From assembly GCF_004519295.1 (NCBI RefSeq), contig NZ_SOZH01000003.1:1-64000 (forward strand): DNA of 64,000 nt. Direction: 5' to 3'. The first letter of the stretch is position 1; each line of letters opens with the position of its first letter. A model generated the notes under the pieces. It was not told where the DNA came from. It saw only the letters and a program-made list of their open reading frames with translations, and did not search any database. Of the stretch, positions 58,758-61,441 are shown one piece after another. A program made the position numbers and the translations under genes. The DNA comes from Cellulosimicrobium funkei. Lineage in GTDB: Bacteria > Actinomycetota > Actinomycetes > Actinomycetales > Cellulomonadaceae.

Positions 58758-59030
58758 TCAGGCGAGCGAGAGGAAGAGCTTCTCGAGCTTCGCCACGTCG
58801 AGCGTCGGGTCCTCGCCGTCCTCGGTCGGATCGGTGAGGCACTGGCGCATGCCGGACGCGATGATCGCGAACCCGGCCCGGTCCAGGGCGCGCGAGACGG
58901 CGGAGAGCTGCGTGACGACGTCCTCGCAGTCCCGTCCTTCTTCGAGCATGCGCACGACGGCCGCGAGCTGGCCCTGGGCGCGCTTGAGCCGGTTGGCGAC
59001 CTTGCTCATGTCGGTGGGGTCGAGCTCCAC
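58758..59030 (-). CDS. CsoR/FrmR-family repressor, CstR-like (persulfide sensor)
   Basis: A 90-residue all-helical metal-sensitive-repressor fold: [56 protein letters not shown]. It has two Cys (35 and 64), the spacing of CstR in Staphylococcus aureus. The copper-binding His of CsoR, four residues before the second Cys, is Gly here, so copper sensing is unlikely and persulfide sensing is preferred by inference. GTG 59030 has a GCAGGAGG site. It is the last gene of the operon headed by the CoA-disulfide reductase. Confidence 0.87.
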
Positions 59031-59086
59031 GGTCGTCCTCCTGCGTTCGTCGGTGTTCTTGTCGGTGGTCGTCGCGGCGCGCCTGG

Positions 59087-59203
59087 TCAGGCGCAGGTGC
59101 AGCGCTGCTCGGGCGGCACCTCGGCCATGACCTCGTCGGCGTGCATGCCGCAGCCGGTCCAGGTGGTCTTGCCGCAGGTGCGGCACAGGGCGGGACTGCA
59201 CAT
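59087..59203 (-). CDS. 38-residue Cys-rich peptide of the sulfide operon
   Basis: Too short for most gene callers but well supported: ATG 59203 has a GGAGAC-type site (GAGGAGACCC), and the frame is closed by a TGA at 59087. It reads [10 protein letters not shown] then [20 protein letters not shown] and PEQRCTCA: six Cys (2, 7, 10, 18, 35, 37) plus a His at 21, enough for one or two zinc or iron sites. It lies between the rhodanese and the repressor on the same strand. No family was recognised; a metal or persulfide carrier is inference. Confidence 0.78.
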
Positions 59204-59292
59204 GGTGGGTCTCCTCGGATGTGGGGGTCGATCGGGGGTGCGAGGGTCGGGGCTCGGCGGGGCCGGGGCGGCCCGTGCGTGGTGGCGCAGGA

Positions 59293-59652
59293 TCAGCGTC
59301 GCACGGCTCCGCCCGCGGCCTGCCACGCGCCGAGCCCCCCGGACAGGCTCGTCGCGGCGTAGCCGAGCGAGCGGAGCTGGCGTGCCGCGGTGCGCGAGCG
59401 CATCCCCGACGCGCACACGACGACGACGGTCGCGCCGTCCTGCAGGCGCCGCGGCGCGGCCGACGGGACGTCGGCGAGCGGCACGTGCACGGCCTGGGGC
59501 GCGTGCCCGGCGCGCCACTCGTCGCGCTCGCGCACGTCGAGGAGCGTCGCGCCGTCGCGGACGAGCTGCACCGCGGTGGCGGCGTCGACGGTCGGGCGCA
59601 CGCCGCCGTCGTCGGACGAGCGGGAGAACAGGCGGCGGAGGCGGTCGATCAT
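59293..59652 (-). CDS. Single-domain rhodanese (sulfurtransferase)
   Basis: A 119-residue rhodanese: a short N-terminal Arg-rich helix, then [28 protein letters not shown] and the active-site loop VCASGMRSR with the persulfide-carrying Cys. ATG 59652 overlaps the CoA-disulfide reductase stop (ATGA) and has an AAGGAG site. Together with the fused rhodanese of the upstream gene it would move sulfane sulfur to acceptors. Confidence 0.92.
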
Positions 59653-61415
59653 GCGGGGACTCCTTCGAGGGTGCGCGCGGCGCGCGGCGTGGTGGTCAGG
59701 GTGAGCCAGCCGCCGGAGAGGTTGCGCGCGTCGAGCCCGGCGGCGAGCAGGACACGGGTCGCGAGGTAGGAGCGCACACCGCTCGCGCAGTGCACGGCGA
59801 CCGGGCGCCCCGCCGCGGCGGCGCGCACCTCGTCGAGCCGCTCGCGCAGCTCGGTGTGCGGCACGTTGAGGGCGCCGTCGAGGTGGCCGCCGGCGTGCTC
59901 GGCGCGCGACCGGACGTCGAGCACGAGCGAGGTCGCGACGACCTCGTCGAGGTCGGCCGCGTGCCACTGCGGCATGGTGCCGTCGAGCACGTTCTGGGCG
60001 ACGAAGCCCAGCATGTTGACGACGTCCTTGGCGGCGCCGAAGGGCGGGGCGTACGCGAGCTCGAGCTCCGCGAGGTCGTCGGCCGTGAGCCCGGCGCGCA
60101 GCGCGGTCGCGAGCACGTCGATGCGCTTGTCCACCCCCGCGCGGCCCACGGCCTGCGCGCCGAGCAGGCGGCCGTCGGGCGCGAAGCTCGCCGTCACGTG
60201 GACCGGCTCGGCGCCGGGGAACCAGCCCGCGTGGTGGGCCGCGTGGACGCGCACCTGCTCGTGCGCGACGTCGGCCGCCGCCAGGGTCGCGTGGCTCGGC
60301 CCGGTCACGGCGGCGGTGAGGCCGAACACGCGCACGATCGCCGTCCCGAGCACGGGCGCCTGCGGTGTGGTGCGGTGCCCGGTCATCGCGTCCGCGGCGC
60401 GCCGCCCTTGGCGGTTGGCCGGGCCGGCGAGCGGGACGGGGCCCGTCGCGCCGGTGACCGCGTGCACGACCTCGACGGCGTCGCCGACGGCCCACACGTG
60501 CGGGTCGGACGTGCGCTGGTCGGCGTCGACGCGGATCGCTCCGCGCTCGCCGAGCGCGAGCCCGGCCGCCGCCGCGAGGTCGCTCGCGGGCCGCACCCCG
60601 ACGCTCACGAGCACCACGTCGGCGTCGAGGACGGTGCCGTCCGCGAGCTCGAGCGCGACGGCGTGGTCCGCGCCCTCGGGCTGCGGCACGACGGCGCTCG
60701 CGGAGGTCCCGAGGTGGAGACCGACGCCGTGGTCGCGGAGCTCGTCCGCGAGCAGCGGCGCGAGGTCGGGCTCCAGCGGCGGGAGCACCTGGTCGGCGCG
60801 CTCGACGACGTCGACCGTGAGACCGCGGCCGACGAGCGCCTCCACGGCCTCGAGCCCGATGAAGCCCGCGCCGACGACGACGGCCCGCAGCGGGGCCGTG
60901 CGGCCCGCGGCGACCTCCGCCTCGAGCTGCGCGAGCCGGGCCGACAGGGCGTCGAGGTCCGCCATGGTCCGCAGCGTGTGCACGGCCGGGTGGTCGAGGC
61001 CCGCGACGGGCGGGAGGACGGTGGTCGCGCCGGGCGCGAGGAGGAGCGCGTCGTAACCGAGCTCGTACGTGCCGTTCTCGGCGGCGACGGTGACCGTGCG
61101 CGCCGCGCGGTCGACCGCGGTGACGCGGTGACGCGTGCGCACGTCGAGGTCGAGGCTCGCGCGGAGCGAGGCGGGCGTGTGCAGCAGGAGGGCGTCGCGC
61201 TCCGCGATCTCGCCCGCCACCTGGTACGGCAGGCCGCAGCCCGCGAACGAGACGTGGTCGGACTGCTCGAGCACGATGATCGACGCGCGCTCGTCGAGAC
61301 GGCGGGCGCGCGCGGCGGCGCTCATGCCGCCCGCGACGCCGCCGACGACGACGATGCGGCGGGCGCCGTCGGGGTCGGACGGGTGGGTCGTCGAGCCGGG
61401 GGTCGAGGGGATCAT
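59649..61415 (-). CDS. CoA-disulfide reductase with C-terminal rhodanese (CoADR-RHD type)
   Basis: A 588-residue flavoprotein. The FAD fold starts at RIVVVGGVAGGMSAAARARRL; SFAGCGLPY contains the single active Cys of CoA-disulfide/persulfide reductases; RAVVVGAGFIGLEAVEAL is the NAD(P)H site. Residues about 470-588 form a rhodanese domain with VHCASGVRSYLATRVL. Such fusions reduce CoA-persulfides and polysulfides. ATG 61415 is 6 nt after TATCGT, so it is leaderless, and an 18-bp palindrome covers the promoter. It heads the leftward operon. Confidence 0.93.
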   Translation of the reverse strand: MIPSTPGSTTHPSDPDGARRIVVVGGVAGGMSAAARARRLDERASIIVLEQSDHVSFAGCGLPYQVAGEIAERDALLLHTPASLRASLDLDVRTRHRVTAVDRAARTVTVAAENGTYELGYDALLLAPGATTVLPPVAGLDHPAVHTLRTMADLDALSARLAQLEAEVAAGRTAPLRAVVVGAGFIGLEAVEALVGRGLTVDVVERADQVLPPLEPDLAPLLADELRDHGVGLHLGTSASAVVPQPEGADHAVALELADGTVLDADVVLVSVGVRPASDLAAAAGLALGERGAIRVDADQRTSDPHVWAVGDAVEVVHAVTGATGPVPLAGPANRQGRRAADAMTGHRTTPQAPVLGTAIVRVFGLTAAVTGPSHATLAAADVAHEQVRVHAAHHAGWFPGAEPVHVTASFAPDGRLLGAQAVGRAGVDKRIDVLATALRAGLTADDLAELELAYAPPFGAAKDVVNMLGFVAQNVLDGTMPQWHAADLDEVVATSLVLDVRSRAEHAGGHLDGALNVPHTELRERLDEVRAAAAGRPVAVHCASGVRSYLATRVLLAAGLDARNLSGGWLTLTTTPRAARTLEGVPA

Positions 61416-61423
61416 GCTCTGAC

Positions 61424-61441
61424 GATACCCCGGGGGGTATC
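61424..61441. promoter_or_regulatory. CsoR/CstR-type operator over the CoADR promoter
   Basis: GATACCCC-CC-GGGGTATC (minus strand reading), 8-bp arms around two bases. ATACCC/GGGTAT palindromes are the known operators of CsoR and CstR. Its left half overlaps the -10 TATCGT (61427-61422) of the leaderless CoADR gene, so binding should block transcription. The repressor gene is the last one in the same operon, giving a feedback loop. Confidence 0.85.

Follow-up and report, generated by a model that had tools for sequence, protein, structure and literature searches.

An actinobacterial CsoR-like sensor of sulfane sulfur acting on the motif ATACCn6GGTAT was published in 2020 (PMC7533328). According to that report, the motif was found with gel shifts, the sensor, ScCsoR (SCO0620), works in a four-gene circuit in Streptomyces coelicolor, and polysulfide no longer dislodges it once Cys37 or Cys66 is mutated. 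In the cst-like system of Enterococcus faecalis, CstR is reported to control RhdA, RhdB, and CoAPR (PMC9405070). Here we analyzed the first 64,000 nucleotides (hereafter, the window) of the 623-kb contig NZ_SOZH01000003.1 of Cellulosimicrobium funkei (GCF_004519295.1), in which four consecutive minus-strand genes encode a coenzyme A-disulfide reductase (CoADR)-rhodanese fusion, a rhodanese, a 38-residue Cys-rich microprotein, and a CsoR-family repressor. We read this locus of a soil bacterium as a persulfide/polysulfide stress operon under the control of a sulfane-sulfur-type CsoR-family repressor, with the microprotein in the regulon and operator spacing separating that regulon from the copper one; our rough probability for this reading is 0.78. 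The operon comprises the following features.

61424-61441, minus strand: operator palindrome, ATACC-N6-GGTAT (the N6 site)
59649-61415, minus strand: CoADR-rhodanese fusion gene, first gene of the operon
59293-59652, minus strand: rhodanese gene, its start overlapping the stop of the reductase gene
59087-59203, minus strand: microprotein gene, 38 codons, Cys-rich product
58758-59030, minus strand: CsoR-family (PF02583) repressor gene, GTG start, last gene of the operon
58689-58737, strand unassigned: large G+C hairpin, 12-bp perfect arms by eye

Comparison with described systems

The locus shares with ScCsoR a CsoR-like repressor, the ATACCn6GGTAT operator before target genes, a rhodanese target, and two Cys residues 29 positions apart (37/66 there by the residue numbers of the paper, 35/64 here), whereas the ScCsoR circuit has a persulfide dioxygenase (PDO) and a sulfite transporter instead of the CoADR-rhodanese, and its four named genes include no microprotein (PMC7533328). 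With the E. faecalis system it shares a CsoR-family repressor sensing reactive sulfur species together with rhodaneses and a CoA-persulfide reductase, unlike which the regulator there is that of a Firmicute and no microprotein is among the named members; since CstR regulates CoAPR and two rhodaneses there, the operon content is of a known kind (PMC9405070). Two copper-type regulators, the CsoR of Streptomyces lividans and the His-type paralogue of our own genome (C14:180662), are alike in family and in having a G/C-tract palindrome, but differ from the repressor in their Cys-His-Cys site, their operator with a seven-base spacer (N7; TAC-X9-GTA in PMC3902906), and a CopZ-like neighbor. Small zinc-finger proteins such as HVO_2753 have in common with the microprotein a short CxxCGK(x)T stretch and the size class, but profile and fold matches to them are weak and non-significant, and in the microprotein family seven of 38 positions are conserved and of ligand type.

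The first-pass annotation had described the locus as the cst system of firmicutes in actinobacterial form, which the persulfide-type CsoR, the operator, and the sulfane-sulfur enzymes support in part, although it is less new than was claimed given the published actinobacterial precedent. The small protein that it called novel indeed matches no named family, and was understated, being the most interesting part of the locus. The kind of operon is already known, and the notable points are how widely the microprotein is spread and the one-base difference in operator spacing between the two paralogous regulons.

A predicted persulfide-type repressor and its operator

All four genes proposed to form a compact leftward operon were present, with the repressor gene last as the first-pass annotation had it, and Shine-Dalgarno-like GGAG/AGGAGG stretches lie 5' of the rhodanese, microprotein, and repressor genes each. 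The palindrome that it placed before the first gene was confirmed; it reads GATACCCCGGGGGGTATC on the plus strand and GATACCCC-CC-GGGGTATC on the coding strand. The window contains a single copy of the pattern (100 shuffles gave 0), and the strict ATACC-N6-GGTAT has this single site in the whole 4.38-Mb genome (reversed pattern, 0). The ATG of the CoADR-rhodanese gene lies 8 nt 3' of it. By eye, the operator overlaps a -10-like TATCGT (61427-61422), from which +1 would fall on the A of the ATG, and a -35-like TTGCCA lies 19 bp upstream of TATCGT. The overlap that had been claimed holds to the eye, whereas the leaderless -10 is plausible only, as the sigma-70 promoter scan reported no promoter.

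Among 25 distinct actinobacterial orthologue loci (≥62% identity; L031-L050, L052, L053, L056, L059, and L060, counted apart from L051, which is identical to L050, L061, which is cut 5', and the more distant oxidoreductases L062-L109), 24 have an N6 site that sits at the CoADR start or ≤200 nt before it, and in 22 of these 24 there is an ATG or GTG 9-10 nt after the 16-bp motif. No N6 site was found at the CoADR start in the four loci from other phyla (L054, L055, L057, and L058; 47-50% identity). Two peculiar arrangements were seen in Cellulomonas. L050 and L051 (Cellulomonas sp. HZM) are on one contig and carry, in inverted orientation, an identical 11.7-kb stretch that includes the operon, either a duplication or an assembly artefact. 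At L045 (4895-9756; Cellulomonas sp. 73-145) the CoADR-rhodanese gene is present twice, with 67% and 52% identity to that of the window, and an N6 site precedes each copy.

The repressor matches PF02583 (Pfam 1.3e-23; 83.6 bits against a cut-off of 22.8) and carries Cys35, Gly60, and Cys64, so that the annotated Cys pair at the CstR spacing and the Gly in place of the copper His were correct and the copper ligand set Cys-x24-His-x3-Cys is broken at position 60. Instead of the N7 operator and copper neighbors of a copper CsoR, its operon has an N6 site and sulfur enzymes. The second PF02583 protein of the genome (C14:180662) is Cys-His-Cys, has an N7 site, and adjoins a gene with a CopZ-like motif. 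In a tree of 108 rows, 75 of the 76 rows without His60 form one group (support 91/97), the odd one (L351) being a His-type protein misread through a one-residue insertion. The structure 7mq1, labeled CsoR in the PDB and presumably the CstR of S. pneumoniae, has Asn at the position of Gly60 and, over few columns, branches off basally to the non-His group (79/79), on a long branch whose placement is uncertain. These comparisons support the assignment of the repressor to the predicted persulfide-type, not the copper-type, CsoR paralogues.

The fusion protein has Pyr_redox_2 (Pfam 1.8e-57) and Rhodanese (2.3e-13) domains and keeps both catalytic Cys residues, i.e., redox Cys60 (SFAGCGLPY, within the SFxxC of this reductase type) and Cys543 of the C-terminal rhodanese (CASGVRS), as expected of a CoADR-rhodanese. 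Its closest PDB structures are 3nta (1.7e-143) with three variants, 8a56 (Coenzyme A-persulfide reductase; 6.7e-136), and 3icr. It scored below the NCBIfam TIGR03385 cut-off for the CoA-disulfide reductase equivalog (383.6 of 578.8 bits), so the substrate name rests on similarity and not on that model. Its nearest named records are from Cellulosimicrobium composti (97%), a record labeled Sphaerisporangium cinnabarinum (96%), and C. funkei (95%). The rhodanese is a single domain (Pfam 4.2e-17) with the loop CASGMRS and Cys80. A separate rhodanese match was absent from seven loci (L038, L039, L041, L043, L050, L052, and L056) that keep the reductase, microprotein, and repressor.

A microprotein family of Actinomycetota

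The microprotein was found in 70 of 99 relatives (own genome included; E<1e-4), in 119 of 296 genomes of the class, and in 36 of 296 genomes of the phylum, 25 of these from other classes; the three genome sets overlap. The family thus spans several classes of Actinomycetota. Eight named genomes were also searched, with the microprotein present in 2/2 Rhodococcus and absent from the single Nocardioides and Pseudonocardia. A plasmid search gave 77 records, whose ten named genera are all actinobacterial (two further genera are unlisted); 49 of the 60 records listed had no gene annotated under the microprotein, a figure to which the incomplete PLSDB gene table adds. Seventeen viral pattern matches were rejected, as none is a relative.

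Conserved positions are C2, C7, C10, C18, H21, C35, and C37 or a His at 37-39. Across 173 deduplicated genes, mostly encoding 37-60 residues, G17 and H21 are invariant, C7, C10, C18, and C35 are each kept in 172, and C2 in 171. Cys occupies position 37 in 92; among the remaining 81, 66 have His38 and 14 have His at 37 or 39, so that 172 of 173 have one or the other and the sole exception (L180) is a degenerate copy. This exchange points to a metal ligand. The AlphaFold2 model has strands at 3-6 and 13-16 and a helix at 19-27 that begins next to C18-x2-H21 (predicted local distance difference test, 83.5), and to the eye the predicted fold recalls a treble-clef finger. Together, the exchange and the modeled fold suggest a zinc-finger-like metal protein. 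None of 24 members searched had a significant Pfam, NCBIfam, or PDB match (best Pfam 0.026 and NCBIfam 0.038, one member each; PDB profile 0.1), and no description of the protein appeared in the open-licence literature searched by motif strings and for small Cys-rich proteins mentioned together with CsoR, rhodanese, or persulfide.

Many members, for example the long microproteins of L029, L118, and L120, have a tail ending in GFFARLFGR-like residues (54/173 by a loose pattern), perhaps a membrane or partner-binding helix. In one of the 173 genes (L018 1-1611; genome G052) the CoADR-rhodanese frame runs without a stop into the microprotein, possibly a natural fusion or a recent stop loss; we do not accept it as a proven fusion because an ATG behind a GGAGG stretch remains.

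Linkage of the microprotein to the proposed persulfide regulon

A strict N6 site lies ≤300 nt upstream of 67 of the 173 microprotein genes (64 distinct sites; gene-site distances of -33 to -109 in 65/68), and at 300-3500 nt upstream of a further 30. Within 300 nt, spacers of 3, 4, and 7-11 were never found and a spacer of 5 once; shuffled sequence gave 0.015 N6 sites. A few divergent or tandem microprotein gene pairs share single N6 operators. At L114 (1240-1614; genome G374), as at L121 and L173, two microprotein subtypes stand back to back with one N6 operator between them. Of 26 genes held out from other classes, 10 have an N6 site ≤300 nt upstream and none has a spacer of 4, 5, 7, 8, or 9; in seven (L383, L387, L388, and L391-L394; site at -14) the operator overlaps the microprotein ATG, which suggests leaderless transcription in those genomes.

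Across 59 genomes, 37 have both the microprotein and a persulfide-type CsoR, 4 the microprotein only, 2 the CsoR only, and 16 neither (Fisher 5.6e-9, an optimistic value because the genomes are related). In other words, persulfide-type CsoR is found in 37/41 genomes with the microprotein and 2/18 without, and the microprotein is independent of copper-type CsoR (p=1). Sulfur genes are also concentrated around it: in 60 regions, counts within 3.5 kb versus 4.5-8 kb were 23 vs 5 for CsoR, 15 vs 1 for TauE, 13 vs 4 for PDO, and 13 vs 1 for CoADR, rhodanese being less concentrated (10 vs 6), and 37 regions have at least one of these five genes within 3.5 kb. A CsoR-family gene is annotated ≤6 kb from the microprotein in all eight named plasmid loci inspected. 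Given its conservation, linkage, co-occurrence, and the N6 operators immediately upstream of many of its genes, the microprotein is a recurrent member of the persulfide regulon in Actinomycetota.

Operator spacing of persulfide- and copper-type regulators

The loci yielded 168 distinct CsoR-family sequences, 113 without and 55 with His60 (six classed by hand); they were gathered by several routes, some via the microprotein or the operator pattern itself. An N6 site lies ≤1.5 kb from 47/113 non-His60 regulators and 0/55 His60 regulators, and an N7 site from 0/113 and 22/55, respectively. Loci fetched by protein family alone gave N6 for 6/10 (non-His60) and N7 for 18/51 (His60), with zero crossing. 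The C. funkei genome itself has one N6 site, at this operon, and five N7 sites (C13:301485, C14:181066, C14:263002, C14:263035, and C18:232031). One of the latter is before the copper-type CsoR paralogue and two are before a gene with a CopZ-like GMTCGHC (by eye); the five probably outline the copper CsoR regulon of the genome. The remaining two, C13:301485 and C18:232031, also lie before genes.

From these sequence patterns, one base pair of operator spacing appears to separate the paralogous regulons, N6 for persulfide and N7 for copper. The rule is consistent with, and goes beyond, the two published systems: the ScCsoR motif is ATACCn6GGTAT (PMC7533328) and the copper CsoR operators of S. 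lividans, reported as TAC-X9-GTA, are N7 (PMC3902906).

Proposed mechanism and alternative explanations

In the resting state, the reduced repressor would sit on the N6 palindrome over the -10/start region and block transcription of the first gene. Persulfides would then link Cys35 to Cys64' across subunits and release the repressor, as judged from ScCsoR and CstR. By analogy with the named systems, the CoADR-rhodanese would reduce CoA persulfide and the rhodanese move sulfane sulfur; feedback would come from the repressor, encoded last in the operon. The microprotein may fold as a minimal zinc-finger-like metal protein, with C7, C10, C18, and H21 joined by C35 and C37/His. With less support than for the steps above, its zinc-bound and free thiols might take up or pass on sulfane sulfur, or it might buffer zinc that persulfide sets free from other proteins, or act as a partner of the repressor. 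Operator spacing (N6 vs N7) would keep the regulon apart from that of copper CsoR. Persulfide sensing by the repressor and the function of the microprotein are both what we infer. As a wider proposal, Actinomycetota would have a widespread class of zinc-thiolate microproteins that are induced directly by persulfide-type CsoR and serve as dedicated sulfane-sulfur carriers or sinks, or as the sulfur donor of the repressor, with the one-bp spacing isolating the regulon from copper CsoR; we offer this tentatively and would not bet on it at even odds.

Several observations weigh against the persulfide-regulon reading. No N6 site was found in the 3.5 kb (or shorter available flank) upstream of 76/173 microprotein genes, nor within 300 nt of 16/26 held-out genes; for 17 of these 26 no CsoR was found in the stretch examined, and an N7 site occurs ≤3.5 kb upstream of one of the 173 genes. 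The microprotein occurs without a persulfide-type CsoR in four genomes (G003, a partial match, G072, G075, and G080, whose sole CsoR, L358, is His-type), and the reverse holds for G073 and G078 (cut CsoR). In 23 of the 60 regions none of CsoR, CoADR, rhodanese, PDO, or TauE is within 3.5 kb, and the microprotein was absent from 4/4 Streptomyces genomes searched (one a metagenome-assembled genome; S. coelicolor not among them), which indicates that it is not indispensable to such circuits. The predicted template modeling score of its model is only 0.43, and fold searches with the model gave no significant match. As for the repressor, its top PDB match is the His-type 6ahx, level with 7mq1 (6e-13 vs 1e-12), and the CsoR tree rests on few columns with an unsettled bootstrap.

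The alternative that survives best, though we consider it unlikely, is that the microprotein is a partner of the repressor rather than an effector, i.e., an anti-repressor or a zinc-dependent modulator handing persulfide sulfur to Cys35. Its presence in 37/39 genomes with persulfide-type CsoR, the variation of the nearby enzymes between CoADR, PDO, rhodanese, and TauE, and the repressor gene following the microprotein gene in the window and close operons would all fit such a role. However, microproteins at loci such as L156, L162, L165, and L206 have their own N6 operator with no CsoR, nor any other of the sulfur genes sought, within 8 kb, and the four Streptomyces genomes lack it, yet ScCsoR is described as working in that genus in its four-gene circuit (PMC7533328).

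The regulator could instead sense another thiol-reactive species (quinone, HOCl, electrophile, or nitroxyl), the sulfur genes being a side branch; dithiol sensors of the CstR type are able to react with further oxidants. In the same direction, DNA binding by Thermus TTHA1953, a CsoR-family regulator of sulfur oxidation, is reported to be unchanged with NaHS (PMC10318464). We regard this as improbable, as the linked genes are persulfide dioxygenase-like, CoADR, rhodanese, and TauE-like, and ScCsoR on the same operator is reported to respond to polysulfide (PMC7533328).

MymT is a copper metallothionein of the mycobacterial RicR/CsoR regulons, and a copper sensor with a copper-metallothionein microprotein would match the PF02583 family, the closest NCBIfam model of the repressor (RicR; 44.1 of 175 bits, far under the cut-off), the small Cys-rich protein, and the copper-protein genes also present in one of the eight plasmid loci, but we rejected this very improbable reading on residue 60 (Gly for the copper His), the spacer (N7 near 0/113 non-His60 regulators and ≤300 nt from 0/173 microprotein genes), and co-occurrence (the microprotein does not track copper CsoR), the same genome also encoding a distinct His-type CsoR that has an N7 site.

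Other features of the window

The G+C hairpin lies 3' of the repressor gene, between convergent genes (minimum free energy of 58684-58745, -59.2 kcal/mol; z -8.0), and is likely the transcription end of the operon; a terminator scan found no T-run terminator. Diverging from the operon is a short plus-strand gene (61529-61876) matching Pfam Imm10 (immunity protein 10; 1.1e-11). Beyond it, on the minus strand, are an open reading frame without a family match (62062-62607) and the C-terminal part of a cation-transporting P-type ATPase gene (62882-63961) running off the window end.

Significance

The spacer rule would allow persulfide and copper CsoR regulons to be predicted separately from sequence. 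Being mostly 37-60 residues long and lacking any matching family model, the microprotein goes unnoticed; as it is tied to a single regulator type and has its own operator in many genomes, its function can be tested directly. If the persulfide-regulon reading is true, it would belong to the core of the bacterial reactive-sulfur response.

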